From assembly GCF_016862915.1 (NCBI RefSeq), contig NZ_BONW01000005.1, positions 62,001 through 126,000 of the forward strand: a stretch of 64,000 nucleotides of DNA. The letters are read 5' to 3'. The notes beneath the pieces are model-generated. The model saw only the letters and a program-made list of their open reading frames with translations, ran no database searches and was not told the DNA's origin. The position numbers and the translations under genes were made by a program. This DNA is from Plantactinospora endophytica (GTDB lineage Bacteria; Actinomycetota; Actinomycetes; Mycobacteriales; Micromonosporaceae). How positions within the stretch are numbered: the first letter of the stretch is position 1; each line of letters opens with the position of its first letter. Positions 10,527 to 29,579 of this stretch are shown here, one piece after another.

Positions 10527-10582
10527 CCCCGACGGGGCCCGGTCGCCGGGCGGGAACTCCCGAGGTGTGACGGGGAGACGTG

Positions 10583-10951: not shown

Positions 10952-10956
10952 CCGGC

Positions 10957-13030: not shown

Positions 13031-13079
13031 GTCGCCGGACACAATGCGTGCATCCGCCCGCCCGAGGCGGGGAGCCGTC

Positions 13080-14717
13080 ATGGCGGGGATGACGTTCGAG
13101 ATGGTGCTCAACGCCGACCCGGAGGCGTGGCGGAAGGCGGCGGCCGGCTGGGACAAGCTCGGCAGGTCGACCGACGAGCGGGCCGACGCGCTCGCCCTGT
13201 CGGCCCGGCGGCTGCCCGACGTGTGGGAGTCCGGCGCGGCGTCGCAGGCGGCGGGCGCGCACTGCGACGGGTTGCGCAAGGAACTCGACACCGCGTTCCC
13301 GCCGATCCTGCTGATCGCCCAGGCGCTCGCCCAGCACGGCACCGACGTCGCCGAACTGCGCGCCCGGGCCGAGGAACTGGTCGAGCAGGGCCGCGCCGCG
13401 CACGTCACCGTCAACCCGGACGGGTCGATGACGATGGACCCGGCGCACGCCAACGAGTGGACCGCACGGTCCATGTCCAGCCTGGTGTGGCAGCGGGACG
13501 CGCTGCTCAAGGAGGCCGCCGAGCTGGACGGCCGGACCGCGAAGACGATCGCGGAGAACACCGCGACCGCGTCCGGTACCCCGTCAGCCGCAGTGGACAA
13601 GTCCAGCGTGCCGGCCAAGGGCACCGATCCGGCCGACGTGAAGAAGTGGTGGGACTCGCTCTCCCCGGCCCAGCGCCGCTACGTGATGTCGGAGTACCCC
13701 GAGCTGATCGGGGCGCTGGACGGCGTACCGGTGGCCAATCGGGACATCGCCAACCGGATCGTGCTGGACCGGGAGCTTGACGGCTTGACCCAGCGCCGGG
13801 CCGATCTGGACGCCCGGGAGGCGCACATCCGGGCCATGGTCGAGCAGGGGCGCGGCGCGGAACTCTATCCGAACGCCGGCAACCCGGCCGGAGCCGCGTT
13901 GAGCGAACTCGAAAAGATCAAGGAAGAGCGGGAGCGGATCGACGGCAACCTGCGCGGGCTCAACAAGATCGACGATCGGCTGGAGGATCCGGGCAAGCCC
14001 CGGGCGTACCTGATCGGGCTCTCCACCGCCGACGACGGCCGGGCGATCGTCTCGGTCGGCAACCCGGACGCCGCCGACAACGTGCTGACGTACGTCCCCG
14101 GCACCGGCGCCGAGCTGTCCAAGGTGGGCGGCGACATCGACCGGGCCGACCGGATGGCCCTGGACGCCAAGCGGGTCGACCCGAGCCAGGAGACCGCCTC
14201 GCTGCTCTGGCTCGGCTACGACGCGCCGGACTCGATCGCCTGGAACGCACCGTTCGACGGCTCGGCCGAGGGCGGTGCGCCGGAACTCAACCAGTTCCAG
14301 AACGGCCTGCGGGCCACCCACGACGGCGAACCGTCCCGCAACGTCGTCCTCGGGCACAGCTACGGCTCGACGGTGATCGGGCACGCCGCCACGGGCGCCG
14401 GGATCAACGCCGACGCCGTGGTCTTCGTCGGCTCGCCCGGGGTGGACACCAACTCGGCGTCCGACCTGAAGGGTGTCCCCACCCAGGAGGTGTGGGCCAC
14501 CCGGGCCGAACACGACGCCATCAAGCGGGTACCCGACTGGGACATCGCGCACGGCAACGACCCGACCCGGGAGGACTTCGGCGGCCGGGTCTTCACCAGC
14601 AATCCGGGCGACCCGGACAACGAGGGCGCGACCCACTCGGCGTACTGGGACGACGGGAACCTGGCCCGGGAGAACATCGCGTACATCGCGACCGGGCAGA
14701 ACGGCAAGGTGACCTGA
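13080..14717 (+). CDS. DUF1023 alpha/beta hydrolase with helical N-terminal domain, copy 2
   Basis: The product has 545 residues, exactly the length of copy 1, and the same layout: N-terminal helical domain (MTFEMVLNADPEAWRKAAAG), Arg/Glu-rich central helices and a DUF1023 hydrolase domain with GHSYGS, Ser at about 427. The segment PSRNVVLGHSYGSTVIGHAA is the nucleophile elbow. The ATG at 13080 follows GGCGGGGAGCCGTC. Its stop overlaps the start of the following lipoprotein (TGATG), so this copy, unlike the first, is coupled to a lipoprotein gene. Confidence 0.8.
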   Translation: MAGMTFEMVLNADPEAWRKAAAGWDKLGRSTDERADALALSARRLPDVWESGAASQAAGAHCDGLRKELDTAFPPILLIAQALAQHGTDVAELRARAEELVEQGRAAHVTVNPDGSMTMDPAHANEWTARSMSSLVWQRDALLKEAAELDGRTAKTIAENTATASGTPSAAVDKSSVPAKGTDPADVKKWWDSLSPAQRRYVMSEYPELIGALDGVPVANRDIANRIVLDRELDGLTQRRADLDAREAHIRAMVEQGRGAELYPNAGNPAGAALSELEKIKEERERIDGNLRGLNKIDDRLEDPGKPRAYLIGLSTADDGRAIVSVGNPDAADNVLTYVPGTGAELSKVGGDIDRADRMALDAKRVDPSQETASLLWLGYDAPDSIAWNAPFDGSAEGGAPELNQFQNGLRATHDGEPSRNVVLGHSYGSTVIGHAATGAGINADAVVFVGSPGVDTNSASDLKGVPTQEVWATRAEHDAIKRVPDWDIAHGNDPTREDFGGRVFTSNPGDPDNEGATHSAYWDDGNLARENIAYIATGQNGKVT

Positions 14718-16569: not shown

Positions 16570-17235
16570 ATGGATCACATCCGAGGTCGAGCACGGCACA
16601 CGCTCGCGCAGCACGCGTACTGGATGGTGCCGCTGGCGGTTCCGACGGTCGCCCTGACCATCGCCCTGCTCGCGCTCGGCGAATGGGGCGCGAATCTGGC
16701 ACAGGTGATCGGGCTGCCGTTCGCGATCTACGCGGCGGCCAGTGCGATCTTCGCCCGGAGAGAACACGTGGCGTACCGGGCGCCGGTCAGTACCCGGCGG
16801 AAGATCGCAGTCGGAGCGCTCACGCTGCTGGTGGGCGCGGTGTTACCCGCGTTCGGCTGGTTGTGGTACGACCGGTACGCCGACGTGGACGTACGGTTCG
16901 GGTCGGCGTCCGTGCTCGGTGAAGGGGAGTCGGTCACCGTCAACCCGAAGCTCGCGAGATCGCAGTGGCGTGGCGAGCTGACCTTCACCCCCGCCCTCAG
17001 CACCGACAGCACCCCGGGCGACTGCGTTCTTCCTGCCCGACTGATGATCACGACAGTCGTCGACGGCCAGCGCATCGGGGTCACGGAGGCCCGGCACGGT
17101 GTCGAGACCGCGATCACGATCCCCGACGGTGTCGAGCAGGTGGAGTTGAACCTCCTCGTCAAAGGGCCACCCGACCAGGAGTGCGTCCTGACCGTGGCCC
17201 TCACCCACGCCGTCCTGCATCGTGTCCCGTGGTGA
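16570..17235 (+). CDS. Membrane protein with extracytoplasmic beta-rich domain
   Basis: The 221-residue product has three hydrophobic helices in the first 100 residues (WMVPLAVPTVALTIALLALG, VIGLPFAIYAAASAIF and KIAVGALTLLVGAVLPAFGW). A C-terminal domain of about 120 residues with alternating hydrophobic/polar strands follows, as in Ig-like or beta-sandwich domains. Two Cys (GDCVLP and QECVLT) could pair outside the membrane. It is followed after 20 bases by the GlnH-like lipoprotein and is probably co-transcribed with it. The function is unknown. Confidence 0.7.
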   Translation: MDHIRGRARHTLAQHAYWMVPLAVPTVALTIALLALGEWGANLAQVIGLPFAIYAAASAIFARREHVAYRAPVSTRRKIAVGALTLLVGAVLPAFGWLWYDRYADVDVRFGSASVLGEGESVTVNPKLARSQWRGELTFTPALSTDSTPGDCVLPARLMITTVVDGQRIGVTEARHGVETAITIPDGVEQVELNLLVKGPPDQECVLTVALTHAVLHRVPW

Positions 17236-17255
17236 TTGCTGGAGTAGAGGTAGAA

Positions 17256-18095
17256 ATGGCGACCGTGAATCAGGTCAGGCGGTGGATCGGCATCCTCCTC
17301 GCCACTTCCGTCGTACTCGCGTCCGGCTGCGGTGAGGGCGAGGCCGAAGTCGATCCTGAGGAATACCTGTCCGGCATCGTGAGCATCGGCGTCAACATCG
17401 ACCTTCCCGGTTGGAGCGAATACTCCAACGGTGTCTGGGACGGCTTCGACATCACGTTGGGCAACTGGCTCAGCCGCGAGATCGGCTTCGACCCGCAGTA
17501 CGTCCCGCTCACCACCGACGAGCGCATGAGCCGGCTGACCGAGGCGAGTGAGATCAAGCTGGTCATCGCCAACTTCTCGATGACCGACGAGCGTCGCGAG
17601 GACATAGACTTCTCCGGGCCGTACCTCACCGACGCGCAAGGGGTCATGACCCTTGCGGGCAGCCCGGTCAGGACGCTCGACGACATCGAGAACAAGACGG
17701 TCTGCGTGACGCTCGGATCGACCGGGGAGACTCGCCTCCTGGCCGGTAAGAGGATCAATCCGTTGTCGGAGAACACGATCCAGCGCTGCGTCGATCGGGT
17801 CCGAGATGGCAGCGCGTACGCGTTCTCGACGGACCGGGTACTGCTTGACGGCATCGTCGCCCACGACCCTGGGCGGAGTCTCCGGGTCGTCCCCGACATC
17901 CGATTCGGACACGAACGGTACGGGATCGGTGTGCGGAACAACCGCCCGGGACTGTGCAACTTCCTCCGGGGAAAGCTTGCCAAGTTCATCGACGAGGAAT
18001 GGGACGACACGTTCCGTAGCAAGCTTCCCGGCGTGTCGCCGAAGGACCGTAAACCGAACTCCCGGGACCTCACCCCGTGCGAGAAACCCTCGTAA
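17256..18095 (+). CDS. GlnH-like amino-acid-binding lipoprotein
   Basis: The 279-residue product carries a signal peptide with lipobox LASGC (Cys 25). A type 2 periplasmic-binding domain of the polar amino-acid family follows: GIVSIGVNIDLPGW, WDGFDITLGNWLSREIG, the mid-domain DFSGPYLTDAQGVMT and NKTVCVTLGSTGETRL. The ATG at 17256 follows GGAGTAGAGG. No permease or ATPase is adjacent, which fits a sensor rather than a transporter component. Mycobacterial GlnH works with GlnX and the kinase PknG, and a PknG-type kinase lies 2 kb downstream. Ligand specificity is inferred as Glu/Gln/Asp-like only. Confidence 0.82.
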   Translation: MATVNQVRRWIGILLATSVVLASGCGEGEAEVDPEEYLSGIVSIGVNIDLPGWSEYSNGVWDGFDITLGNWLSREIGFDPQYVPLTTDERMSRLTEASEIKLVIANFSMTDERREDIDFSGPYLTDAQGVMTLAGSPVRTLDDIENKTVCVTLGSTGETRLLAGKRINPLSENTIQRCVDRVRDGSAYAFSTDRVLLDGIVAHDPGRSLRVVPDIRFGHERYGIGVRNNRPGLCNFLRGKLAKFIDEEWDDTFRSKLPGVSPKDRKPNSRDLTPCEKPS

Positions 18096-18151
18096 CGGCG
18101 ACATTCGGTCCTCCCCGACCACCGAATGTCCGAAGGCGGCAGAGCTGCGGC

Positions 18152-18316
18152 AGCGAGCTCGCGGTCGCGCAGCCACGAGTCGGGGGAGACCACCTCCACC
18201 GCGAGCGCGGGCGCCTCGACCGGGTACGACGTCTGGTCGTGGTCGACGTCCGCGTCGGCGCGTACGACGATCAGGTCGGGCTCGGGGCGTTGTCGCGGAC
18301 CGAGCACCACGGACAT
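18152..18316 (-). pseudogene. Uma2-family (DUF820) nuclease fragment
   Basis: The minus-strand frame from 18316 encodes VVLGPRQRPEPDLIVVRADA and then APALAVEVVSPDSWLRDREL, the core of Uma2 family proteins (restriction-endonuclease-like fold). A stop lies a few codons upstream and the C-terminal part of the domain is absent. Only about 55 residues survive. It sits in the 431-bp gap between the GlnH-like gene and the protease operon, where nothing else coding is seen. Confidence 0.65.
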
Positions 18317-18526
18317 CCGAACACCGCTCTCCGTGGCTCACCGTCGACCGGGTAGCCAGGTCGGTGCGAGCGCTCGTGATGCTCGGGCGTACCTGCGCCA
18401 GGTCAGCAGCTACACCCGAGTGTGGGTGCCGGGCGCGGCCCGGCGGTCGACTGCGGCGGAAGGCGGACCGATTTCCGACGTTATTCCGGGTGGCATCGAT
18501 ACGACACCTGCGAATAACGTTGCCAT

Positions 18527-20251
18527 GTGTCGCATTCGGGCAGCACACAGTGGCGGGCGTGCATCCGGGACGATCGGGCCGGAATTCGCGGCGCCGGCAT
18601 CGTGCTCGGCGACCGGTACGTGCTGACCTGCGCGCACATCCTGCTCTCCGAGGCGCCGGGCGAGCGGGCCGGACGGCCGGACCAGGACTTCCAGGTGGAA
18701 CTGGTCGGACGGGATCCCGCCGGCACGCCGGCCCGGAGTCGGGTGATCGCCGGCCGGGTGGTCGACGGCTGCTGGCGCCCGCCCCAGGACGACCGCCGGG
18801 CCGACCTGGCACTGCTCCGGCTCGCCGAGCCGCTGGCCGTAGGCACCGGCCCGATGCTGCGCCGGCTGCCGTCGAGCGCCCGCCGGGCCGTCCGGATGTT
18901 CGGCTTCCCGGCGATCGTGCCGACCGGGGTCTGGGCCCGGGCCCGGCTCGCCGGGGACGGCGGTCCGGGTGGTGAGTGGATCCAGCTCGACTCCGACCCG
19001 ACCGGCCCGGCGGTCGAGCCCGGATTCAGCGGCACAGCGGTCTTCGACGAGGAGACCGACCAGGTGCTGGGGATCGTGGTCAGCTATCTCGCCGGCCGGG
19101 GCTCGGCGCTGTCCTGGATGATCCCGGTCGAGACGATCATCAGGTACCTGCCCCGGGTGCGGGAATGGGTCAGCGGCGACTCGGCGGTCGACGCCAGCTT
19201 CGCCGAGCCGACCGCCCCGGGAGCGACCGACGAGGCCGTCGTCCGGCAGCTCACCGACTTCCTCGCGCCCGGCGCCCCGCCGGACACCAGGATCATCGTC
19301 ACCGCGCCGGGTTCGGCGGCGCACGCCGCCCTGCGCGACGTGGTGCTGCGGACCAGCCGGGAGTTCCGGCCCGGCGACGCCGATCGGGGCGGGCCGGTGC
19401 CGGCCGCCGCCGGAGAACCGCCGCCGGGCCGGATCGACCTGGCCCTCGACGTCTCCGGGCGGACCGCGCACGAGGTGAGCAGCCGGATCGTCAACTGGAT
19501 GAACGTCGGCGCCGACCCGGAGAAGTCCCTGGCCGACAGCCTGGCCGGCGAACCGCCGGCGATGAACCTGGTGCTCGACGGTGCCGACCGGGCCGCCGAT
19601 CCGCAGGCGCTGGCCGCCGAGGTGGTGCGGCCGATCGCGGAGCAGGTCGCCGGACACGAGCTCCGGCTGCTGCTGGTCTTCCACGACCAAGACGCGCCGA
19701 GCCTTCCGTACGTGGCGACCGAGCTGCTGGCGGCGCGGATCGCCGACGTCCGGGCCGCCGAACAGGCCGCCCGGGAACGGTACGCCTACGTCGCCGCCCG
19801 GGTCGCCCCGGCGCCCGTACCGTCGTTCCGGGAGCCGGCGCTGCGGCTGCGGTTGACCGCGTTGCGTGCCGCCGCCGCCCAGCCCGGCGAGACTCCGCTG
19901 CTGCCCCGGATCGAGTCCTGCCGACGCAGGGCCGACCTGGCGCTGGACGCCGCCAGGCAGGCGCGACGGGAACTGGATGCGCTGCTCGACGAACGCGACC
20001 GACTGCGGGACCGGCTCGACGGCTACCGCTCCGGCGTACCCGAGCGGCTGCGGGAGGATCCGGAGTTGACCACGCGGTACCGCGACGCCCACGAGGCGCT
20101 CTGGCGCGGGCCGGCCGAGCTGTCCGCCTGCGCCGCGTTGGTCGACCGGTACGGCGCGGCCATCCGGCGCCGGGCCGCCGAGCCGGACGACTCTGGCCCG
20201 CGCCCCCGACAGTCTGAGACACCGGGCGGGATGTCGGGCGGGGCGCGGTGA
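18527..20251 (+). CDS. Trypsin-like serine protease with C-terminal helical region
   Basis: The 574-residue cytoplasmic-looking protein begins with a trypsin-like domain whose triad can be seen: His37 in LTCAHIL, Asp93 in RADLALLRL and Ser168 in EPGFSGTAV. A domain of about 230-400 (IIVTAPGSAAHAALRDVVLR, MNLVLDGADRAAD) resembles an effector/NTPase-like module without a clear P-loop. The C-terminus is a coiled-coil of Arg/Asp/Leu helices. GTG start at 18527 lies 7 bases after TAACGT, suggesting leaderless initiation. The stop overlaps the kinase GTG. No signal peptide is seen, unlike secreted trypsins, so it may process an intracellular partner. Confidence 0.8.
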   Translation: MSHSGSTQWRACIRDDRAGIRGAGIVLGDRYVLTCAHILLSEAPGERAGRPDQDFQVELVGRDPAGTPARSRVIAGRVVDGCWRPPQDDRRADLALLRLAEPLAVGTGPMLRRLPSSARRAVRMFGFPAIVPTGVWARARLAGDGGPGGEWIQLDSDPTGPAVEPGFSGTAVFDEETDQVLGIVVSYLAGRGSALSWMIPVETIIRYLPRVREWVSGDSAVDASFAEPTAPGATDEAVVRQLTDFLAPGAPPDTRIIVTAPGSAAHAALRDVVLRTSREFRPGDADRGGPVPAAAGEPPPGRIDLALDVSGRTAHEVSSRIVNWMNVGADPEKSLADSLAGEPPAMNLVLDGADRAADPQALAAEVVRPIAEQVAGHELRLLLVFHDQDAPSLPYVATELLAARIADVRAAEQAARERYAYVAARVAPAPVPSFREPALRLRLTALRAAAAQPGETPLLPRIESCRRRADLALDAARQARRELDALLDERDRLRDRLDGYRSGVPERLREDPELTTRYRDAHEALWRGPAELSACAALVDRYGAAIRRRAAEPDDSGPRPRQSETPGGMSGGAR

Positions 20252-22617
20252 CGAACAGGTGCAACCGGCCGGCCTGCGGCGGGATGGTGGACGAGACCGG
20301 CTTCTGCGACCGGTGCGGGCGACGGCCACTGCCCGGGCCGGCCGCCGAGCCGCCGCCCGTCGTACTCGGATCGACGGTGACCGGCGGCCAGTCGTGGCTG
20401 GTCGGCGGCCTGGTGCCGATGCCGGAACTCGAACTTCCCGACCCGGTCAGCCGGCTACGCGGCGACACGGAGGTGCCGGAGTCGGGCCGGTACTGCGGCC
20501 GGTGCCGCAACGAGGTCGGCCGTGGGTACGCCGGCCAGCCCGGACTGCCGGAGGGCTTCTGCGGCCAGTGCCGGACGCCGTACTCGTTCGTTCCGAAGCT
20601 GCGCCGGGGCGACCTGGTGGCCGACCAGTACGAGGTCGAGGGCTGCCTGGCCCGGGGCGGTCTCGGCTGGGTGTACCTGGCCCGGGACACCCACCTGGAC
20701 GACAACCTGGTCGCGCTCAAGGGGCTGATCACCAACGACGAGGCCGCACTGCGGCTGGCGGTCGCCGAACGGCGCTTCCTCACCACCCTCGACCACCCCA
20801 ACATCGTCCGGATCTTCAACGCGGTCAGCCACCGCGACCCGCAGAGCGGTGAGCAGACCGGCTACATCGTGATGGAATACCTCAACGGGCAGTCGTTGCA
20901 GGACGTCCAGGAGGCCCTGCTGGCCCGGAGCGCCGGACCGCTGCCGATCGAGCACGTGCTCGCGTACGGGCACGAGATCCTCGCGGCGCTGGAGTACCTG
21001 CACGGCCGGGGCCTGCTCTACTGCGACATGAAGCCGGCGAACGTGATCCGTTGTCCGGACCGGATCAAGGTGATCGACATCGGCGGCGTACGCCAACTCG
21101 ACGACAGCACCAGCCCGGCGGTCGGCACGGACTTCTTCCAGGTTCCGCCCGAGGAGATCCGTCGGCACGGACTGACCGTCCGGTCGGACATCCACACCGT
21201 CGGCCGGACGCTTCAGGTGCTCTTCGAGGTCAGCGAGGAGGGACGCCGGGACAGGCCGGCGGGAAGCGACGCGGACCGGATCGCGTTCGGGGTGAAGTCG
21301 TTCGAGCGGCTGGTCGACCGGGCGGTCGCCGGGCACGATCACCGGTTCGCCACCGCAGCGGAGATGTCCCAGCAGCTCAAAGGGGTGCTCCGGGAACTGC
21401 TGTCGCTGCGTACCGGCCGGCCCCACCCGGTCCGGTCGGCGGTCTTCGCCCCGACCCCGGTACTGCTGGACAACGGGCTCGGTGCCGTACCCGGGCTGGA
21501 CCTCTGGATCCGGGGCGAGACCGACCAACTCGACGTCGCGCCGCCCGCCCCGTCCCGGGCGGCCGGTGGCCTGCCGCCGCCGATCGTTGACCCGGACGAC
21601 GACGCGGCGGACCTGCTGGCGACCGCCGGTGCGGCGGACCCACGCGGACTGATCGAGAAGTTGGCCAACTCCGGCCGGCGTTCGGCGGAAATCCAGTTCG
21701 CACTCTGCCGGGCGTACCTGGAAGCCGGCGATCCGGGCAGTGCGGCCCGGTCCCTGGACGCGGCGGCGGCCGACCTCGGTGCCCGGGCCCGGCACGACTG
21801 GCGGATCCGGTGGCACCGGGGGCTGCTCGGGCTGGCCCGCGACGACGTGGCGACGGCCGAGGTCGAGTTCGACGCCGTCTACTCCGACTGTCCGGGCGAG
21901 ATCGCCCCGAAGCTCGCCCTCGGCTACTGTGCCGAGCACCTGGCCGGGTACGACCGGGCAGGGCTCTGTTACCAGGCGATCTGGCGGCGGGACCGGAGCG
22001 AGGGCAGCGCGGCGTTCGGGCTGGCCCGGCTGCGGCTGCGCGACGGCGACCGGGCCGGGGCGGTGCGGATCCTGGACGAGGTGCCGAGGGAGACCCTGCA
22101 CTACGAGCGGGCCCGGGTGGCGGCGGTCCGAATCCTCTGCGGCCGGCTGCCGGTCGGCGGGCCGGCCCCGGCCGACGTCGACGAGGCGGTCCGGCGGCTG
22201 TCCGCGCTGCACCTGGACGGCGGCAACGAGACCGGGGAGGCCAGGGAGCGGATGACCGCACTGGTCCAGGCGGCGGCGCTGGGCCTGCTCCGCGACGGCA
22301 CCGTGCCCGGATCGGCTTCGCTTCGCGCGGGCGCCGCCGTGCCCGGATCGGCTCCGCTTGGCGCAGGCGCCGCCGTGCCCGGGGCAGCCCCGTCGCGCGG
22401 TGGTGCCGTGGCGGGCGGGGCGAAACCGCCGCACGCGGAGGGCGCAGTGGGTGGGCTCGGCGACGGCGAAGTGCTCGGCCCGGAGTTGACCGAACACCAC
22501 CTGCGGCTGCGGCTGGAACGGTCGATGCGGGTACTCGCCCGCCAGGCCCGGACGGCGGGCGACCACGGCGCGCTGGTGGACCTCGCGAACGCGGTACGAC
22601 CAAGGACCCGATGGTGA
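20248..22617 (+). CDS. pknG: PknG-type serine/threonine kinase with zinc ribbons and TPR region
   Basis: The 789-residue protein matches PknG. An N-terminal zinc ribbon has Cys 5, 10, 20 and 23; a rubredoxin-like unit has Cys 83, 86, 105 and 108 and continues CRTPYSFVPKL. The kinase domain carries GGLGWVYLARD, Lys158, LLYCDMKPANV with Asp260, and VIDIGGV (Asp277 in place of DFG). Mycobacterial PknG has the similar NDLKPEN and DLG motifs. A TPR-like region follows (about 455-660), then three 12-residue repeats (about 686-721). PknG controls glutamate metabolism via GarA in mycobacteria; here the target is unknown. GTG start overlaps the protease stop. Confidence 0.88.
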   Translation: MTNRCNRPACGGMVDETGFCDRCGRRPLPGPAAEPPPVVLGSTVTGGQSWLVGGLVPMPELELPDPVSRLRGDTEVPESGRYCGRCRNEVGRGYAGQPGLPEGFCGQCRTPYSFVPKLRRGDLVADQYEVEGCLARGGLGWVYLARDTHLDDNLVALKGLITNDEAALRLAVAERRFLTTLDHPNIVRIFNAVSHRDPQSGEQTGYIVMEYLNGQSLQDVQEALLARSAGPLPIEHVLAYGHEILAALEYLHGRGLLYCDMKPANVIRCPDRIKVIDIGGVRQLDDSTSPAVGTDFFQVPPEEIRRHGLTVRSDIHTVGRTLQVLFEVSEEGRRDRPAGSDADRIAFGVKSFERLVDRAVAGHDHRFATAAEMSQQLKGVLRELLSLRTGRPHPVRSAVFAPTPVLLDNGLGAVPGLDLWIRGETDQLDVAPPAPSRAAGGLPPPIVDPDDDAADLLATAGAADPRGLIEKLANSGRRSAEIQFALCRAYLEAGDPGSAARSLDAAAADLGARARHDWRIRWHRGLLGLARDDVATAEVEFDAVYSDCPGEIAPKLALGYCAEHLAGYDRAGLCYQAIWRRDRSEGSAAFGLARLRLRDGDRAGAVRILDEVPRETLHYERARVAAVRILCGRLPVGGPAPADVDEAVRRLSALHLDGGNETGEARERMTALVQAAALGLLRDGTVPGSASLRAGAAVPGSAPLGAGAAVPGAAPSRGGAVAGGAKPPHAEGAVGGLGDGEVLGPELTEHHLRLRLERSMRVLARQARTAGDHGALVDLANAVRPRTRW
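22303..22410 (+). repeat. Three in-frame 36-bp repeats in the kinase gene
   Basis: Units begin at about 22303, 22339 and 22375 and encode VPGSASLRAGAA, VPGSAPLGAGAA and VPGAAPSRGGAV. The array lies in a linker between the TPR-like region and the last helices. A 36-bp period keeps the frame, so copy number could vary without destroying the gene. Confidence 0.6.
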
Positions 22618-22739
22618 GGCTCCGAGGACCAGGTGCTCCGGGGATCCGATGGTGCGGCTCCGAGGACCCGATGCTCCGGGGATCCGATGGTGAGGCTCCG
22701 AGAACCCGGTTCTCCGGGATCCGATGGTGCGGTTTCGAC
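22608..22739 (+). repeat. 38-bp tandem repeat between kinase and VWA genes
   Basis: Units start at 22608, 22646, 22684 and 22721; the first two are 38 bp, the third 37 bp and the fourth partial. Each begins CCGATGGTG(A/C)GGCTCCGAG and ends in CTCCGGGGAT or CTCCGGGAT. The array begins inside the kinase stop codon region and ends 35 bases before the VWA start, filling the 157-bp gap. It breaks an otherwise overlapping operon. Confidence 0.7.
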
Positions 22740-22774
22740 GAGGCGACGGTGACGGGCCGAGAGGAGGCGACGGC

Positions 22775-24328
22775 ATGATGCCAGGGCCTGGCGGGGGCGG
22801 ACCGCCACACGCCTTCGGGCTGGAGGTCGTGCAGAACCGGTACCGGTCCACCTCGGACACCGGGATGGCGGTCGTGCTCAGGGTGACGGCACGCTCCGCC
22901 GCCGCTGCGGTGGCGACACCGGCACCGACCTCGGCGGCGGTGGTGGTACTCGTCGACTGCTCCAGTTCGATGGGCTATCCACCGGCGAAGATGACGGCGG
23001 CGAAGCAGGCCACCCGGGCCGCGATCGACAGCATCCGGGACGGCAGCAGCTTCGCCATCGTCGCCGGCACCGACACCACCCGGATGGTGTACCCGGAGCG
23101 GGCGACGATGGCCGTCGCCGGGGACAGCGCCCGGGCGGCGGCGAAGCAGGCCACCGGACACCTCTACGACGGCGGTGGCACGGCGATGGGCGGCTGGCTG
23201 CGGTTGGCGGACCAGCTCCTGGCGCCGTACCCGCAGTCGGTGCGGCACGTCGTCCTGCTGACCGACGGGCGCAACGAGCACGAGACGCCGGAGTACCTGG
23301 AGGAGGTGTTGACCTCCTGCGCCGGCAACTTCGTCTGTGACGCCCGGGGCATCGGCGAGGACTGGGATCACCGGCAACTGCTCCGGATCACCTCCGTGCT
23401 GCGCGGCACGGCCGAGGCGATCGGGCACGTCGACGACCTCGCGGCCGACTTTCGGTCCATCATGGACAGAGCGATGGGCAAGCGCGTACCCGACCTGCGG
23501 ATCCGGCTCACCACTGCACCCGGCGTACGGCTGCGCTCGTTGCGGCAGGAGACACCGACGCTCGCCGACCTGACCGAGCACGCGACCGTGCTGGACGAGC
23601 GGACCAGCGAGTTCTACACCGGCTCCTGGACGGGCGAGGAGAGCCGGGACTTCCTGGTGGACCTGGCGATCGGCCACCGGTACGACGGTGACCGCCCGCC
23701 GCTGGACGAGGATCTCCGGGCGGCCCGGGTCGACCTGCTCACGGCGGGCGAGCGGTGCGCCGACCCGAAGCCGATCCTGCTGCGCTGGACGGACGACCCG
23801 GTCGCGCCGACCCGGATCGAGCCGCTGGTCGCCCGGCACCTGGGGCAGGAGGAGTTGGGCGAGGCGGTGGCGGCCGGCTGCGACGCCCTGGAAGCCGGCG
23901 ACCGGGAGGCTGCGGAGACACAGTTCGGGCTCGCCGTCGGGCTGGCGGAGCGGCTCGGCGACACCGAGATCCTGCACCGGCTGGCCGGCCTGGTGCACAT
24001 CACCGGCGACTCCGACCACCCGGTCCGGCTCAGGGACGACTGGACCCGCAGCGCCCTGCTCCGGGCCGCGATGAGTTCGGTGATGGCCGGCTCGGGGGCA
24101 CAGTGGGACGCCCGACAGCCACGGCCGGAGCCGCCGAAGCGGACCGGGCCGGACCAGGTCTGCCCGTGCGGACGCATCTCACCGCCGACCGCGTTGGCCT
24201 GCGAGTCGTGCCAACGCCCGTTCGACGGCACGGGATCCGGCGACGGCACGGGATCCGGCGACGGCACGGGATCCGGCAACGGCACGGCATCCGGCAACGG
24301 CACGGGATCTGGCGAGGGGGCGGCGTGA
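22775..24328 (+). CDS. VWA domain protein with C-terminal zinc ribbon
   Basis: The 517-residue protein has a von Willebrand A domain with an intact MIDAS start DCSSSMG (Asp61), followed by the helical Thr/Asp elements GGGTAMGGWLRLADQ and VLLTDGRNEHETPEYLE. The region after about 240 is a beta-rich domain then helices (DREAAETQFGLAVGLAERLG). Near residue 463 CPCGRISPPTALACESC looks like a zinc ribbon. The last 30 residues are Gly/Thr/Ser repeats encoded by an 18-bp array. No signal peptide is present, so it is cytoplasmic. The ATG at 22775 follows GAGGAGGCG. The stop overlaps the next gene (GTGA). Confidence 0.82.
   Translation: MMPGPGGGGPPHAFGLEVVQNRYRSTSDTGMAVVLRVTARSAAAAVATPAPTSAAVVVLVDCSSSMGYPPAKMTAAKQATRAAIDSIRDGSSFAIVAGTDTTRMVYPERATMAVAGDSARAAAKQATGHLYDGGGTAMGGWLRLADQLLAPYPQSVRHVVLLTDGRNEHETPEYLEEVLTSCAGNFVCDARGIGEDWDHRQLLRITSVLRGTAEAIGHVDDLAADFRSIMDRAMGKRVPDLRIRLTTAPGVRLRSLRQETPTLADLTEHATVLDERTSEFYTGSWTGEESRDFLVDLAIGHRYDGDRPPLDEDLRAARVDLLTAGERCADPKPILLRWTDDPVAPTRIEPLVARHLGQEELGEAVAAGCDALEAGDREAAETQFGLAVGLAERLGDTEILHRLAGLVHITGDSDHPVRLRDDWTRSALLRAAMSSVMAGSGAQWDARQPRPEPPKRTGPDQVCPCGRISPPTALACESCQRPFDGTGSGDGTGSGDGTGSGNGTASGNGTGSGEGAA
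24224..24313 (+). repeat. Five 18-bp in-frame repeats at the 3' end of the VWA gene
   Basis: Five units of GACGGCACGGGATCCGGC or near variants (AACGGC..., GGATCT...) run from 24224 to 24313 and encode a (D/N)GTGSG- or NGTASG-type tail. The array ends about a dozen bases before the stop codon. Confidence 0.65.
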
Positions 24329-25473
24329 CGGCGCCGGTGGCCGGCGACGGGACGGGACGACCGAGCACGACCCGGCGTACGCTGCTGCGCCTGCTCGGCT
24401 GTCTGCTCGGCGCGACGGTGCTGGTGCTGGCCAGCTCGCTCGCCGTCGTCTGGGGTACCCACCGCACCGCCGAGACGGTACGCACCCGGAGCCTGCCCTC
24501 GGTGATGGAGTTGTCGGCGGTCCGTACCGCCCTGGTCCGGGCCGACACGGCGGCGATCGACAGCTTCCGGACCGGGCAGGCGAGACTGGCCGGGCCCGGC
24601 GAGGAATACCAGAACCAGATCGCCGCCGCCAGCCAGAGCCTGGCCCAGGCGGCCGAGGACATCGGCTCCGCGGCCGACACCAGCAGCCGGCAGCTCCAGG
24701 TCGTCGAAGGGCTGCTGGTCCGGTACAACGACCTGGTCGGCCAGGCGTACGCGCACTACGGGAAGGACGGCCGGGACGGCCTCTCCACCGCCTACCTGTG
24801 GTACGCCTCCCGCCTGCTGCACTCCGCGGACGGCATCCTGGCCCAACTCGACAGCCTCATCGCGGCGGAGACCGCCGCCCTGGAGACGCGACTCTCGTCG
24901 GGATGGCTGAGCCCGGCCGCGACCCTGGTGTGGGTGCTGCCGGTGCTGCTCCTGCTGCTCCTGCTGGTCGGCACACAGGTCTTCCTGCGTCGGCGGTTCC
25001 GGCGGGCGGTCAACTGGGGGCTCGCCACCGCGACCGCACTGCTCGCCGTACTCGCCGCCGGCACGTCGTTCGCGCTGGTCTCGAAGGCGCAACTGGCCGA
25101 CGCCGAGGAGGAACTGTCGCAGGTACGCCGGCTGTCGGGGGAGCAGTTCAGCGCTGCCGACCGGGAGGGCATGAGCGCACTGGACGGCCTCGTCACCGAG
25201 TTCTGCCCGCCGGATCGAGGATGCGACATCACCAGCGAGATCTTCCGTACCGGTCTCGGCTCGGCTGCCCCGTCGTCCCCGGCCCCGGCCCCGACGCCGG
25301 CGTCGGACCGAGCCGTGCTGGAGGGCGCGCAGGAGGTCACCGGGCAGGCGGCGGCAGCCACCAGCGCGACGTCCGGTGCCTTCGTCGTACTGCTGCTGGC
25401 GTCGCCGATCGTGTTGCTCGTCTGGTGGGGGCTGCGCCCGCGCATCGAGGAATACCGGTACCGGTCGAGATGA
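24325..25473 (+). CDS. Four-TM sensor-like membrane protein (GlnX-like)
   Basis: The 382-residue protein has four membrane helices at about 20-45, 194-222, 231-253 and 351-372. Two extracytoplasmic helical domains lie between helices 1-2 and 3-4. The first (TRSLPSVMELSAVRTALVRA) resembles a four-helix-bundle sensor; the second holds two Cys (FCPPDRGCDIT). This double arrangement recalls GlnX, which couples GlnH to PknG in mycobacteria. There is no histidine-kinase or HAMP-type output domain, so signalling would have to go through protein contacts. GTG start overlaps the VWA stop; the next ATG overlaps its stop. Confidence 0.75.
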   Translation: MTAPVAGDGTGRPSTTRRTLLRLLGCLLGATVLVLASSLAVVWGTHRTAETVRTRSLPSVMELSAVRTALVRADTAAIDSFRTGQARLAGPGEEYQNQIAAASQSLAQAAEDIGSAADTSSRQLQVVEGLLVRYNDLVGQAYAHYGKDGRDGLSTAYLWYASRLLHSADGILAQLDSLIAAETAALETRLSSGWLSPAATLVWVLPVLLLLLLLVGTQVFLRRRFRRAVNWGLATATALLAVLAAGTSFALVSKAQLADAEEELSQVRRLSGEQFSAADREGMSALDGLVTEFCPPDRGCDITSEIFRTGLGSAAPSSPAPAPTPASDRAVLEGAQEVTGQAAAATSATSGAFVVLLLASPIVLLVWWGLRPRIEEYRYRSR

Positions 25474-26867
25474 GGCAGCCGACGCGACGCACAATCGCCC
25501 ACCTGCTCGTGCTGCCGGTGCTGGTCACGGCAGTCGGCCTCGGCGGCTGCCTCGGTCAACCCGACGAGCGGACGGTGACGGTGCTGGCCTCCTGGACCGG
25601 CGCAGAGGAGGAAAGCTTCCGCAGGGTGCTGGACCGGTTCGAGGACGAGTACGGCATCGAGGTCGACTACCAGGGCAGCCGCGCCGTACGCCAGATCCTC
25701 CTCGCCGAGGTGCAGAAGGGCACCCCGCCGGACGTCGCGGTGCTGCCGACCCTGAGCGAGATGGCGGCCTACCACCGCCGGGACGTGCTGCGACCGCTCG
25801 GCGGCGAACCCGAGTCGTCGATGAGCCGGCAGTGGCGCGAGTGGGCGCAACTGGACGACGGCGGCGAGCTGGACGTGGTACCGATCAAGGCCGACCTGAA
25901 GAGCCTCGTCTGGTACGTGCCCGGTCGGGTGCCGTTCGGTCCGGCGGACGAGCCGCAGAGCTGGGAGGCGCTGGTCGAGACCAGTCGGGCACTGGCGTCG
26001 ACGGGCGCGACACCCTGGTGCCTGGGGATGAGCGCGACGCCGGGCTCCGGCTGGCCGGGTACGGACTGGATCGAGGACATCCTGCTGCACCGCTCCGGGC
26101 GGGCCGCGTACGACAGATGGTCCTCCGGTGGGCTCGCCTGGACGTCCCCGGAGATGACGGCGGCCTGGACGGCCTGGGGCGACCTGGTCAACGCTTCGGG
26201 GATGGTCCGGGGTGGTGCCGCCGCCGCGCTGCTGACCGAGTTCACCGACGCCGGCCGGCCGATGTTCACCGACCAGCCCGGCTGCCGCTTCGAACACCAG
26301 GCGTCGTTCGTGGTCGGCATCCGGGACGGTTATCCGGACGACGACCGGGGCGCCGCCGTCCGGGCGGCGGACGTGGCCCGCGCCGACTACTTTCCCTTCC
26401 CGACCTTCGGCGGTCCCGAGGCGGACGGCGCCAGCCGGCAGGGTTCGGTGGTGTCGGCCGACTTCGCCGGGCTGTTCACCGACAAGACGGCGGCGAAGGA
26501 CCTGATCAGGTTCCTGGCCACGGACGAGGCGCAGGCGATCTGGCAGGGCAGCAGTGCCGGCACCTTTTTCTCGGTCAACCGGGAGGTCGGTCCGGACAGG
26601 CCCACCGCGCCGGCTGGTGACGACAGGCGGGCCGAGGTGAAATGGGAGATCGCCGAGACGCTGACGGCGGGTACGAGCCCACTGTGTCTGGACGCCTCGG
26701 ACGTGATGCCGACCGCGATGGCGAACGCGTTCCAGCACGCGGTGCTGGAGTACTTGCAGTACCCGGACCGGCTCGACGCGCTGCTCGGCACCCTCGAACG
26801 GCTCCGCGCCTCCATCGGAGCGGAGGAGTGGCTACCCAGGGGCACGTGCAGCGAATCAGGTCAGTGA
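25470..26867 (+). CDS. Extracellular sugar-type solute-binding lipoprotein
   Basis: The 465-residue protein has a signal peptide with lipobox GLGGC (Cys about 27) and the family 1 binding-protein layout: VTVLASWTGAEEESFRRVLD, FEDEYGIEVDYQGSRAVRQI and KGTPPDVAVLPTLSEMAAY. It ends in a helical C-lobe. The ATG overlaps the GlnX-like stop (ATGA), so it belongs to the protease-kinase-VWA-sensor operon. There is no ABC permease or ATPase anywhere nearby, which argues that it feeds a ligand signal to the sensor rather than a transporter. Ligand unknown. Confidence 0.8.
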   Translation: MRQPTRRTIAHLLVLPVLVTAVGLGGCLGQPDERTVTVLASWTGAEEESFRRVLDRFEDEYGIEVDYQGSRAVRQILLAEVQKGTPPDVAVLPTLSEMAAYHRRDVLRPLGGEPESSMSRQWREWAQLDDGGELDVVPIKADLKSLVWYVPGRVPFGPADEPQSWEALVETSRALASTGATPWCLGMSATPGSGWPGTDWIEDILLHRSGRAAYDRWSSGGLAWTSPEMTAAWTAWGDLVNASGMVRGGAAAALLTEFTDAGRPMFTDQPGCRFEHQASFVVGIRDGYPDDDRGAAVRAADVARADYFPFPTFGGPEADGASRQGSVVSADFAGLFTDKTAAKDLIRFLATDEAQAIWQGSSAGTFFSVNREVGPDRPTAPAGDDRRAEVKWEIAETLTAGTSPLCLDASDVMPTAMANAFQHAVLEYLQYPDRLDALLGTLERLRASIGAEEWLPRGTCSESGQ

Positions 26868-26937: not shown

Positions 26938-27366
26938 TCACATGTATTCTGCGGCTGTTTGCTCGACCTGTCGAATGAAGAGTTCAAGTTGCGGGTCGTC
27001 AAGATTCTCGTCTTGCAGCAGTGTTCCGAGAATCGCGATCTGGACAGAGAAGGCGACATCCGGCGCTATGTCATCTACGAGGTGGGTCTCCCCGAGTACC
27101 GCACGGATCATGCCCTCCATCGCAAGAGCGGGAAGGTCGGACCCGTCCTGGTAGCGCGACCGCGTCTCCCGCACGAACTCGGCGACATACTGTAGATCCT
27201 TCCCCCGGAAGCGTCGATCGACGGCGAGTGCGAAGGCTGCGCCGATGACCTGTGACCCGCCGGACCAGCCGACCTGGTCCAGTTGCTCCAGCAGAGAGTC
27301 GGCCCGTTCCCAGTCACGTCGGGCCATCGCCCGGATCAGGTCGCTCAGTTCTCTTCTCGTGTCCAC
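26938..27366 (-). CDS. Cassette A gene 5: ~142-residue acidic helical protein
   Basis: The product (DWERADSLLEQLDQVGWSGG, then FALAVDRRFRGKDLQYVAEF) is helical and acidic with no known domain. It aligns with the cassette B protein at 29139: both have a GW, the A(V/I)(D/E)RRF motif and an IRAV segment at equivalent places. GTG start at 27366 is used; it overlaps the 3' end of the upstream membrane gene by 53 bases. Last gene of the minus-strand cassette, convergent with the binding-protein gene. Function unknown. Confidence 0.65.
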   Translation of the reverse strand: MDTRRELSDLIRAMARRDWERADSLLEQLDQVGWSGGSQVIGAAFALAVDRRFRGKDLQYVAEFVRETRSRYQDGSDLPALAMEGMIRAVLGETHLVDDIAPDVAFSVQIAILGTLLQDENLDDPQLELFIRQVEQTAAEYM

Positions 27367-28021
27367 GTGCCCGGAACCTCGCTATTCCTTTGCGTATCAG
27401 CTGGCTTGATCTATACATGGTGACGCTGACTATCACACCGATGGCGACGAGATGGCCTGCTGCCTCCGGGGCGTCAATCTTCTGTTGTGCGGGCGAAGAG
27501 GACGGCGGCGGCTTGGCTGTGCTCGTACACTGGGTACCTGGCGGTTTGAGAGGGCCCTTGAGGATCTTTATCGTCGTCTGAGCTACTTCGGTCGCACTCT
27601 TGCCCGCATCCTGCAGGCTCTCGACGTTCCGGCTCATCCTCCTCATGAATGCGCCGACGCCTGGGGCGCTGTCCGAGCGCTGCTCGCTCTCCCCGAGGAC
27701 GCGTTCGCCCGACGGCATGGCGCCGTCGACTACGTCATGATCGGGGATCGAACCAGGAGCGATGGTGTCGAGGTAATCCTCGAAGTGTTTCCGCGCCTTG
27801 TCCAGCAGGCGGGCGATCCTGGCTGATTTCTCACCGGCCGTCTGGATGTCGGTGATTGCTTCCTCAAGCTGCGTGCGCTCGGTGCCCTGCGCTGCCTCGT
27901 GATAGTGCCGCTGGCTCTGTTCGGCGTGAGCGTTTGCGCGCATGGCAGTGACCGCAGAGGCGGCAAGGCGCTTCCGTAGGTCGAGGAGCTGGGCTACAAC
28001 GTCAGCCATGCCTCCGGTCAT
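27314..28021 (-). CDS. Cassette A gene 4: helical protein with C-terminal membrane segment
   Basis: The 235-residue protein starts MTGGMADVVAQLLDLRKRLA, continues with long polar helices (HYHEAAQGTERTQLEEAITD and KSARIARLLDKARKHFEDYL), has a Pro/Ser linker and one hydrophobic helix near 195-212 (LVAIGVIVSVTMYRSSQLI) followed by a basic tail. It aligns with the cassette B protein at 29563 (shared DVVAQ, EA-QGT, TA-EK motifs and position of the linker). The start overlaps the stop of the 86-residue gene (ATGA), indicating coupling. Confidence 0.68.
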   Translation of the reverse strand: MTGGMADVVAQLLDLRKRLAASAVTAMRANAHAEQSQRHYHEAAQGTERTQLEEAITDIQTAGEKSARIARLLDKARKHFEDYLDTIAPGSIPDHDVVDGAMPSGERVLGESEQRSDSAPGVGAFMRRMSRNVESLQDAGKSATEVAQTTIKILKGPLKPPGTQCTSTAKPPPSSSPAQQKIDAPEAAGHLVAIGVIVSVTMYRSSQLIRKGIARFRARGHEKRTERPDPGDGPT

Positions 28022-28278
28022 CCGAGGGCGTGGAGATAGGTATCGGCGTGTTCGACGGCGGCGTCAACCCGCCGGATTGTCAGCTCGACCTCACGATCGA
28101 GACCGGCAAGGATCGCCAGCCCGGCCTTCGCATCGTCGTTCGCGCTGTCGTGAACCGTCAGCCTGGCGAGCCGCTCCGCAGCGGCTGCTTCGCCGGCTAC
28201 CCGCTCCAGGACTTGCTTGGTTTGTCGTGCCGCATGATTGCCCTCGCGGATGGTGCGTTTGACTGCGCCGATGTTCAC
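28018..28278 (-). CDS. Cassette A gene 3: 86-residue helical protein
   Basis: The product begins MNIGAVKRTIREGNHAARQT and is almost entirely helical, with Ala/Arg/Glu heptad-like spacing; HDSAN and a C-terminal LLH-type ending have counterparts in the cassette B copy at 30234. It is WXG100-like in size, but no WXG motif exists. GTG start at 28278. It lies 15 bases after the 87-residue gene stop and overlaps the following gene start. Confidence 0.65.
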   Translation of the reverse strand: MNIGAVKRTIREGNHAARQTKQVLERVAGEAAAAERLARLTVHDSANDDAKAGLAILAGLDREVELTIRRVDAAVEHADTYLHALG

Positions 28279-28293
28279 CGCGTTGTCCCTGTT

Positions 28294-28557
28294 TCAGCCC
28301 AGCACGCTGGTGTATTCGCGGGCGGCGGCGGCGCTGCCTTGGATCATCGTCGCCGCCTCGATCAGGCGCTGCTTTGTCTGCTCGGCGCGGTGGATGGCTT
28401 CGGCGATCTTGGGATGGCCGGTACCGGCGGCGACGGCCCTGAGTCGGGTGAGGACCTGTTCGGTGTTCTCGATCGCTGACCGAATCTGGTTGAGGGTGTT
28501 GTTTCCCTGGTCGGCGGCCTGGACGAGCGCGGCTTTGACTTCCTCGATGCTGGCCAT
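28294..28557 (-). CDS. Cassette A gene 2: 87-residue helical protein (DUF6244-like)
   Basis: The protein starts MASIEEVKAALVQAADQGNN and continues with long helices (EQVLTRLRAVAAGTGHPKIA). I associate it, from memory, with the Micromonosporaceae family DUF6244. Strong ribosome binding site GGGGAGG lies five bases before the ATG at 28557. It is nearly identical to 30528-30791: only a few changes occur, all toward the C-terminal end. First gene of a four-gene operon behind a promoter at about 28654. WXG-like size and helicity suggest a secreted or scaffold role, but this is inference. Confidence 0.7.
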   Translation of the reverse strand: MASIEEVKAALVQAADQGNNTLNQIRSAIENTEQVLTRLRAVAAGTGHPKIAEAIHRAEQTKQRLIEAATMIQGSAAAAREYTSVLG

Positions 28558-28639
28558 GCGATCCTCCCCGAGTGCCGGCTGCGGCGGGACGGTCGGAGGT
28601 TGAGCATCCCGGGCGGCCAAGCACCCGGCCGTCACGCTC

Positions 28640-28700
28640 GCGTGGTCGAGCGAACACTATCCGAGACGGGCGGGCGACGCAGCCCCGCCGATCGCTATCG
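28640..28700 (-). promoter_or_regulatory. Promoter of cassette A operon
   Basis: Reading the minus strand, CTCGGATAGTGTTCG includes a -10-like TAGTGT (complement of 28654-28659). An upstream CGGCGGGGCTGC (complement of about 28683-28694) is shared with the cassette B promoter. The block is about 100 bases before the 87-residue gene and downstream of the GntR gene. Confidence 0.5.
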
Positions 28701-28719
28701 GTCCTAGCTGGCCTGACCG

Positions 28720-28938
28720 TTACTTCGCCTCGGTCACGAAGACGCCCTTGCCCTGGTGGCCGTAGACCAACCCCTCGGACTTCAGCAGGACGATCGCCAT
28801 GTGTACGGCGTTGTTGCCGACGCCGTAGCTGGCTTGCAGTTGGGCCGTGGACGGCAGTTTGTCGCCTGGACCGAGCGCTCCGGACTTGATCTGTTCGCGC
28901 AGGTCGTCGGCGACACGCTGGTAGTTCGGCGTGACCAT
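28720..28938 (-). CDS. Cassette A gene 1: GntR-type winged-helix regulator
   Basis: The 72-residue protein is a bare GntR winged-helix DNA-binding domain: YQRVADDLREQIKSGALGPG, then GDKLPSTAQLQASYGVGNNA, then a hairpin wing GLVYGHQGKGVFV. There is no ligand-binding domain, as in short GntR repressors of integrative elements and some Streptomyces regulators. ATG at 28938. It lies just upstream of the four-gene operon, on the same strand, and is about 60% identical to the cassette B regulator at 30949. A repressor role is inferred. Confidence 0.82.
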   Translation of the reverse strand: MVTPNYQRVADDLREQIKSGALGPGDKLPSTAQLQASYGVGNNAVHMAIVLLKSEGLVYGHQGKGVFVTEAK

Positions 28939-29041
28939 GAGTTGTTTCTTCCTGGGCGGCGGTTCTCGAATCCGTCTGACGCGCGCCGCACCGGCCCAGT
29001 AGGCGATCGAGCAAGCAGGGTGGCACCGGGTGGTGGCGTGG

Positions 29042-29064
29042 CTGCGGCAGAGCGCGTGCCGCAG
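29042..29064 (-). terminator. Hairpin between the two cassettes
   Basis: CTGCGGCA (29042-29049) and TGCCGCAG (29057-29064) form a perfect 8-bp stem with a 7-base loop. It lies between the last gene of cassette B and the GntR gene of cassette A, so it could terminate cassette B transcription. No T-tract. Confidence 0.45.
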
Positions 29065-29138
29065 ACCGGAGCTATGCCCAGTAGTCCGGTGCCGTCATGA
29101 TGTGAGCCGACTCGGGGAGATGTCGTGCAACGAACGTT

Positions 29139-29579
29139 CTACTGTCTGCTGGCCTGTTCCTCTGCCAACTGCTTGGCCTCGGCGAGAACCTCGTCCAGAG
29201 CGTCGTCGGACAGCCCTTCTCTGCTGAGGATCGTGTACGCCACCAGGGTCTGCACCTGACCCATCGCCTCTGGACTCATGTCGAGCTGTACCGACTCGTC
29301 GAACACTGCCCTGATCAATGACTCCGCCTCGGAGGGATCGATTGGACCTGGGCCGTCAACCGTCCCAGCCCGAAGGTCGGCGACGAACTTGATGACCTCA
29401 GCTTCGTCGTATGTTCCCTCGAAACGTCGTTCGATGGCCAGGAAGAAGAGCGCGCTCAGTAGCGCCGGCCAACCATCCCATCCTTCGGCATCCAGCCTGC
29501 GCTCGTATTCGTCGTTCGCCTCGAAGTCGCCCTTGATCAGAGTCCGCGCGAACCCGACCACGTTATCTCTTATCATCAT
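29139..29579 (-). CDS. Cassette B gene 5: ~146-residue acidic helical protein
   Basis: The product begins MMIRDNVVGFARTLIKGDFE; FFLAIERRFEGTYDEAEVIK and SEAESLIRAVFDESVQLD parallel the cassette A protein at 26938. It ends in an acidic amphipathic helix (LAEAKQLAEEQASRQ). ATG at 29579 (or 29576) overlaps the membrane gene by up to 17 bases. No domain recognised; probably soluble. Confidence 0.65.
   Translation of the reverse strand: MMIRDNVVGFARTLIKGDFEANDEYERRLDAEGWDGWPALLSALFFLAIERRFEGTYDEAEVIKFVADLRAGTVDGPGPIDPSEAESLIRAVFDESVQLDMSPEAMGQVQTLVAYTILSREGLSDDALDEVLAEAKQLAEEQASRQ

Follow-up and report, generated by a model that had tools for sequence, protein, structure and literature searches.

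A conserved variant of the PknG module with a trypsin-like protease and a sugar-type sensor pair in Plantactinospora endophytica

The stretch of DNA considered here, hereafter the window, comprises 64,000 nucleotides of the 9.7-Mb genome of Plantactinospora endophytica (G000:C5:62001-126000, 72% GC) and contains a five-gene operon on the + strand at 18527-26867, the products of which are a trypsin-like protease with a coiled coil (T), a PknG-type Ser/Thr kinase (K), a VWA protein (V), a GlnX-like four-transmembrane (TM) protein (S) and a sugar-type solute-binding lipoprotein (L). This T-K-V-S-L cassette is real and conserved, and it is a new variant of the PknG module. Expressed more broadly, soil actinobacteria appear to carry a second form of the nutrient-sensing PknG circuit described in tuberculosis bacteria, its function being read from sequence, in which a sugar-type sensor replaces the amino-acid sensor and a protease is built in. 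The cassette is quite possibly a diverged PknG nutrient-sensing module in which both the sensor and the output have been exchanged for others.

Distribution and gene order

As judged from the gene neighbourhoods sampled, the order of the cassette is conserved far above chance. Among 150 genomes of the same family, T finds matches in 35 (1e-10), nine of which, including its own, extend over at least 450 of 574 residues; all eight of the other genomes with such a near full-length T contain T-K-V-S-L, as against none of five fetched control loci in which only the trypsin domain is matched. Ten loci from named genomes, three of which are the same genomes as family matches, carry T-K-V in every case and S-L in nine. 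The hosts are Micromonospora endophytica, M. zingiberis, M. arborensis, M. parastrephiae, M. orduensis, Virgisporangium aurantiacum, Actinoplanes sp. NBRC 103695, two Saccharothrix and Planotetraspora, the last having T-K-V with a divergent GlnX-GlnH pair. At the level of the phylum, four of 396 genomes hold a near full-length T, including the window's own, and the other three, all of family f4, contain all five genes by profile search (3/3). One cassette, at locus L185, was found by a GlnX search which is independent of T, and it too has all five genes. In total there are 20 distinct cassette loci, all with T-K-V, and the full five-gene set is present in 19. Outside the window, gene calls come from a GC-composition script, tblastn or our own profiles, with a Pfam check for some.

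An earlier account of this DNA, here termed the preliminary description, had placed the PknG-type kinase, the GlnX-like sensor, a sugar-type solute-binding protein (SBP) and the protease together in one operon. This is borne out as a conserved arrangement, with the gene order being kept outside this genome in 19 further T-K-V loci, at about 30-85% identity. The junctions are similarly preserved. In the window there are 4-base overlaps at T/K, V/S and S/L and a gap of 157 bases at K/V, such that the earlier remark that most genes overlap is accurate for all junctions except the last named; in the named loci, the start codon overlaps the upstream stop by 4 bases at V/S and S/L wherever both genes are present (9/9), and at T/K in 8 of 10. 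Among titles and abstract openings on PknG with a protease, VWA or SBP, from a search which had subscription literature mostly outside its scope, none describes the cassette.

Relationship to the ordinary PknG locus

The same genome encodes another PknG at G000:C34, adjoining a GlnX of 420.5 bits (NF058618, cut-off 250). The order of this ordinary locus (L011) is GlnX-GlnH-coiled coil-PknG-PP2C-VWA-FHA, and SBP_bac_3, PknG, PP2C, VWA and FHA are confirmed therein by Pfam. When 78 further PknG neighbourhoods were scanned with tblastn and profiles, a VWA gene was present in 62 of the 69 loci outside family f2, and GlnX, GlnH, coiled coil, PP2C, VWA and FHA were all present in 46 of the same 69, usually in the order of L011 (37/59 in the window's own family, f1, taken as Micromonosporaceae; 8/9 in f4; 1/1 in f41). 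Family f2, which from its three-gene loci is taken as the mycobacterial family, has GlnX and GlnH in seven of nine loci and none of the remaining partners. Two f2 genomes have second PknG copies (L135, L136), with no GlnX or GlnH match in 19 kb. The VWA protein, which the preliminary description had counted as a novel partner, loses that standing, and was rejected as a special feature of the cassette, since it is present in the ordinary locus of this genome and in most PknG loci outside f2.

Homology to the ordinary locus extends to K (42% identity with its PknG), to V (42% identity with its VWA protein, 1.9e-89), to S by profile and to the coiled coil of T. On these comparisons, the window cassette is paralogous to the ordinary PknG locus and has diverged from it: the protease is new, as is the sugar-type sensor pair, and PP2C and FHA have been lost. 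No match to PP2C or FHA came from the window operon or from any of the 19 other cassettes. The scan of those other cassettes kept one best match per stretch and leaves uncounted any stretch resembling FHA, or the upstream lipoprotein B described below, that matches another reference better.

K has the domain order of PknG, namely rubredoxin, kinase and TPR, with an N-terminal zinc ribbon evident by eye. Both PknG-specific Pfam models exceed their cut-offs (PknG_TPR, 223.6 bits against 27; PknG_rubred, 60.1 bits against 28.5), and the closest solved relative by profile is the PknG structure 2pzi (1.2e-173), which we take to be that of M. tuberculosis. Indeed, K is also placed among PknG proteins in trees, such that its description as a PknG-type kinase can be retained. 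V keeps conserved D-x-S-x-S, T and D positions, presumably those of a metal-ion-dependent adhesion site (MIDAS).

A tree of 55 PknG proteins unites all 20 cassette kinases with that of locus L129, which has only the kinase, GlnX and a family-1 SBP (SBP1), in one clade (100/100), and shows the common ancestry of the cassette kinases. This clade joins (98/99) a group with VWA and coiled coil and without PP2C. L129 lies within it on a long branch beside the likewise long one of the f4 kinases, and its placement there may be wrong. Both kinase trees were built with a reduced set of PP2C-type kinases (28/56 in the earlier one, every fifth in the 55-protein tree), and the latter omits eight VWA-FHA rows without PP2C and two rows without neighbours. 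A classification of 100 PknG proteins by their neighbours gives 56 with PP2C, one with PP2C and SBP1, 19 with an upstream trypsin, 14 with VWA and without PP2C (8 of these with FHA), seven in GlnX-GlnH-PknG loci, two without these neighbours and one with SBP1 only.

The protease

T is composed of a protease region (about residues 1-213), an alpha/beta middle region (about 236-385) and then a C-terminal coiled coil. The protease region has the chymotrypsin fold with the His-Asp-Ser triad of trypsin-like serine peptidases (HtrA/Deg fold), and its catalytic motifs are retained in all 19 proteins checked, a set which does not include L185. Because the C-terminal coiled coil matches the coiled-coil protein of the ordinary locus (43% over 60 residues, 1.4e-6, BLASTP), T has the appearance of this usual PknG partner extended N-terminally by a trypsin domain and the middle region. 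Pfam gives no match to PDZ in T, yet several HtrA alignments extend to model residue 281-300. In the middle region no Walker A motif was seen, and the match list of a PDB fold search with the T model was filled by the trypsin domain.

A Trypco1 gene is present in 11 of the 20 cassettes, and in three of five trypsin-only relatives (L035, L037, L038) Trypco1 adjoins the trypsin. Kaur et al. (2020, eLife, PMC7159879) report Trypco1 beside the trypsins of predicted conflict systems and, for GAP1-N2 systems, a zinc-ribbon kinase-PP2C-vWA set. Within the genus of the window's host, genome G113 (L028) has a partial second T gene in two pieces, ca 13 kb from an intact cassette; contig C4 of the same genome contains a second, equal-scoring cassette place, which may be an assembly duplicate.

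The sensor pair

S has four TM stretches (hydropathy script) and helical periplasmic domains, and its predicted model is all-helical with a first helix of 69 residues (predicted local distance difference test score, 78.9). A PDB fold search with this model, on the question of a tandem four-helix bundle, gave no match at E 0.001 or better. L belongs to SBP_bac_1 and hence falls outside the SBP_bac_3 family of GlnH; its lipobox Cys27 is conserved in 9/9. Since the closest solved structures are AcbH (1.3e-12) and a glucose-binding protein (2e-11), L is called sugar-type, which is a fair assignment by homology.

The manner in which GlnX proteins pair with binding proteins is seen from a tree in which 56 GlnX represent 53 chosen loci. 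All 23 of the SBP1-linked proteins fall on one side of a single branch (99 in the SH-like approximate likelihood-ratio test, SH-aLRT), and the other side contains all 27 linked to a family-3 SBP (SBP3) together with six that have no detected SBP. SBP1 pairs occur, moreover, on three kinase lineages, these being the cassette clade, L039 and L182, of which L039 is an ordinary seven-gene chassis with an SBP1 pair; and L045 has a GlnX-GlnH pair inside the cassette kinase clade. GlnX type tracks the class of binding protein, a division that the kinase tree does not reproduce. We accordingly read the transducer and the binding protein as being physically matched, with the pairs exchanged between cytosolic modules. 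Since nine cassette loci supplied the S and L profiles, the pairing counts (S-L 20/20; cS-cB 74/78, four without SBP) are partly so by construction; the argument is carried by the kinase and GlnX trees and by loci L039, L045, L129, L182 and L185.

Two further arrangements were observed. At L180, L181 and L183 there are pairs of a GlnX-like protein and an SBP1, with no PknG match in the 10-19 kb around. At L193, L194 and L197 two GlnX-GlnH pairs flank a single PknG, which suggests two sensors for one kinase.

The C-terminal tail of GlnX

The sequence R-x-x-[ED]-[YF] is found within the last 16 residues of 95 of 97 GlnX proteins (one per locus). In a wider set of frames distinct by their last 60 residues, the loose form of the motif is present in 137 of 142 and the strict form in 129, where the five misses are L114, L129 and L185, in which it is shifted, and the broken frames L083 and L195. 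In other called genes of the same loci, the motif is encountered in just 3 (strict) or 6 (loose) of 1094. When 96 GlnX are aligned, L083 being excluded, the E and R of the tail are the two top conserved columns (99% each), with G at 97% and Y at 95%, and an arginine of the cytosolic TM2-TM3 loop is conserved at 98%. One residue follows the motif in the ordinary type (70/76) and five in the cassette type (18/19); S itself ends RIEEYRYRSR.

Because of this conservation, we propose the GlnX tail and the arginine loop as a candidate PknG-docking face. In a 2022 study (PMC9769921) the way in which GlnX and PknG interact is called 'still elusive', with the TPR domain put forward, and a 2018 study proposes TPR surfaces, including the groove, as candidate sites; PMC8546545 and PMC6069109 were likewise consulted. 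No title or abstract opening describing the GlnX tail was found, within the same literature scope as above.

Proposed mechanism and alternatives

In the re-fitted sensing module that we prefer, L would be anchored outside the cell, bind a soluble ligand that is probably a sugar or resembles one, and dock on the periplasmic helices of S, which would then relay the ligand state across the membrane. The cytosolic face of S, made up of the arginine-rich TM2-TM3 loop and the R-x-x-E-Y tail, would engage the TPR domain of K, which in turn would form a single complex with V and the T coiled coil. Switching would alter the activity of K and, with it, how active the T protease is or what access it has, such that a kinase/protease read-out would take the place of the reversible read-out by kinase, phosphatase and FHA in the ordinary module. 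Where Trypco1 is present, in roughly half of the systems, it could be a further component that regulates the protease or serves as its cofactor. A dual output of the cassette, by both proteolysis and phosphorylation, may be inferred. More generally, and on the doubtful side, PknG circuits may be plug-in modules, in which GlnX-SBP pairs are locked for each ligand class and swapped via a universal socket of tail and arginine loop that is read by the TPR domain of PknG, and in which one lineage has coupled the socket to a Trypco1-type conflict protease to give a ligand-controlled, irreversible proteolytic switch, which an extracellular binding protein and a eukaryote-like kinase would drive.

Several points weigh against the preferred mechanism. 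The steps of interaction, ligand binding, phosphorylation and cleavage are all inferred, and the sample of cassettes is heavily weighted to one family. Neither L129 (K-S-L) nor L182 (coiled coil-K-V-S-L) gives a trypsin match, and the protease is therefore dispensable for the sensor-kinase part. Trypco1 is without a match in the window at 10-45 kb and is also missing from eight other cassettes. S scores 119 bits against NF058618, under the curated cut-off of 250, for which reason it is named GlnX-like and not GlnX; since no BLASTP match exists between S of the window and GlnX of the ordinary locus, their kinship rests on profiles, and in the predicted model the second periplasmic domain of S seems shorter than in the description of GlnX. 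In the kinase tree the long branches of the f4 kinases and L129 meet. The GlnX of L045 groups with the sister clade, which means that its GlnX-GlnH pair may be ancestral and not swapped in. As for the docking face, other GlnX columns are also conserved at 97%, including two periplasmic tyrosines, and the tail motif could alternatively serve in membrane anchoring or stability.

It is unlikely that the cassette works as a PknG-type metabolic controller of the ordinary kind, one that takes a sugar as input and phosphorylates an FHA regulator encoded elsewhere, with a protease domain that only binds peptides or orders the complex. K certainly keeps its rubredoxin, kinase and TPR domains, S and L suit the logic of a sensor, and L129 and L182 are without the protease; however, the catalytic motifs of T, kept in 19/19, are unlike what would be seen in a decayed scaffold, and the cassettes are without PP2C and FHA. 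Moreover, ETTSVFR, presumably the phosphosite of OdhI/GarA, returned nothing from the genome when searched as a DNA pattern, a weak point given that the pattern tolerates no variation.

Quite unlikely, too, is a conflict or cell-fate system, in which the PknG sensor set triggers a trypsin/Trypco1 module of the kind predicted by Kaur et al. (2020) and a ligand or stress frees the protease against self or invader targets. The frequency of Trypco1 in the cassettes, its position beside the trypsin in the trypsin-only relatives and the Trypco1-trypsin and zinc-ribbon kinase-PP2C-vWA sets in PMC7159879 are all in keeping with such a system, as is the alpha/beta middle region of T, which, with no Walker A seen, is compatible with an inactive nucleoside triphosphatase. 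Against this, Pfam and NCBIfam give no MoxR/VMAP match among the cassette proteins, the gene set is near-constant, unlike the variable effectors of such systems, and an extracellular binding lipoprotein fits nutrient sensing better. Membership of a defence system by PADLOC was rejected: its strong matches are to the kinase domain only (many PD-T4-6 and similar kinase models), those for T (RT-Protease_XI, 0.024) and S (DpdE, 0.0034) being weak.

The upstream A-B pair

Upstream of the operon are two further genes, encoding a small membrane protein (A) and a GlnH-like lipoprotein (B), the second of which ends 431 bases before T on the same strand, without overlap with the operon. The closest solved relative of B is the GlnH structure 6h1u (2.7e-20), which we take to be from M. 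tuberculosis. As an SBP_bac_3 lipoprotein, B fits GlnH by family but not by linkage, in that it is not encoded with GlnX and PknG. Within the 150 family genomes it has two close relatives, in G103 (69%) and G006 (57%), each adjoining an A homologue (pair loci L148, A 66% and B 69%; L149, A 34% and B 56%), and in the 16 kb around each the sole other cassette match is a weak one of 39 residues to the coiled coil (4e-3). In the 1.7-10 kb upstream of the 19 other cassettes, neither A nor B is a best match in any. From these neighbourhoods, A-B is a separate, recurrent two-gene unit of TM protein and SBP, possibly another binding-protein sensor. The preliminary description had B as a partner of the cassette, which is not upheld, and B as a second input was rejected by linkage. 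That B and L both report to S is very improbable, despite the likeness of B to GlnH 6h1u among solved structures and its position 431 bases upstream on the same strand, as the A-B pair stands alone elsewhere, B is not upstream of the other cassettes and the 23 SBP1-linked GlnX separate from the SBP3-linked side of the tree.

Genes of the window

The seven + strand genes considered are given in Table 1. Every protein named in the preliminary description was recovered with Pfam/NCBIfam in its place, and the earlier statement that transporter subunits are missing agrees with the lack of any such match among the 14 window proteins scanned.

Table 1. Genes of the window operon and the upstream pair, with positions in the window
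Gene	Product	Position	Strand	Evidence
T	Trypsin/HtrA-fold protease, middle region and coiled coil	18527..20251	+	Trypsin_2 1.1e-10 (Pfam)
K	PknG-type Ser/Thr kinase	20248..22617	+	PknG_rubred 2e-16, Pkinase 3.4e-27, PknG_TPR 3.8e-66 (Pfam)
V	VWA domain and C-terminal zinc ribbon (ribbon by eye)	22775..24328	+	VWA_3 3e-16 (Pfam)
S	GlnX-like four-TM protein, SBP1-linked subfamily	24325..25473	+	NF058618 2.8e-34 (NCBIfam), TM count, GlnX tree
L	Family-1 (sugar-type) solute-binding lipoprotein	25470..26867	+	SBP_bac_1 1.5e-13 (Pfam), lipobox Cys27
B	GlnH-like SBP_bac_3 lipoprotein, outside the cassette	17256..18095	+	SBP_bac_3 1.1e-16 (Pfam)
A	Small membrane protein paired with B, outside the cassette	16570..17235	+	A-B pairing in relatives

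Three tandem repeats are found in the operon. One of 38 bp is at the K/V junction (22604-22729), the 157-base gap containing most of it; one of 36 bp (22301-22382) lies in the C-terminal part of K, in a linker absent from most aligned relatives; and one of 18 bp (24223-24315) is at the end of V. Elsewhere in the window, 10447-12594 and 13044-14717 encode consecutive Abhydrolase_8 proteins which are paralogous in appearance, and on the - strand at 26938-30234 there are two similar-looking tandem gene pairs, each consisting of a 223-235-residue protein and one of ca 145 residues; none of these gives a Pfam match above cut-off.

Comparison with known systems and significance

The cassette resembles the GlnX-GlnH-PknG operon of Mycobacterium and Corynebacterium in having a PknG with rubredoxin and TPR, a four-TM GlnX-type transducer and a binding lipoprotein without a transporter, all in a single operon, although Corynebacterium PknG, unlike K, is without rubredoxin. 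It differs in that its SBP is of family 1 and not family 3, the sensor genes come last, S is under the GlnX cut-off, and a trypsin-coiled coil protein and a VWA protein are added. With the seven-gene PknG locus (L011, L071 and others) it shares the coiled coil-PknG-VWA core, a GlnX-type protein and a binding lipoprotein, but PP2C and FHA are absent, the coiled coil is fused to a protease and the sensor pair is another.

Two sets described in PMC7159879 are also comparable. As in the trypsin-Trypco1 modules of MoxR-vWA systems, a trypsin-like domain is followed by other domains, a vWA protein is nearby and Trypco1 is a neighbour in 11 of the 20 cassettes; in contrast, the cassette gives no MoxR/VMAP match, has PknG and a GlnX-type sensor instead, and its window copy is without Trypco1 nearby. 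The zinc-ribbon kinase-PP2C-vWA set beside GAP1-N2 GTPases likewise combines a zinc-ribbon kinase with a vWA protein, whereas the scanned window proteins give no GAP1-N2/GTPase match and PP2C is lacking.

Perhaps the most useful product of the analysis is the hypothesis concerning the GlnX tail, which, being short and nearly invariant, offers a peptide-testable candidate for the passage of the signal from GlnX to PknG. The cassette itself is a natural experiment, in which the same kind of kinase occurs in soil bacteria with another ligand class and another output. If the protease is that output, the cassette would be a kinase-protease relay steered from outside the cell, and as such would form a bridge between nutrient sensing and the modules of predicted conflict systems.

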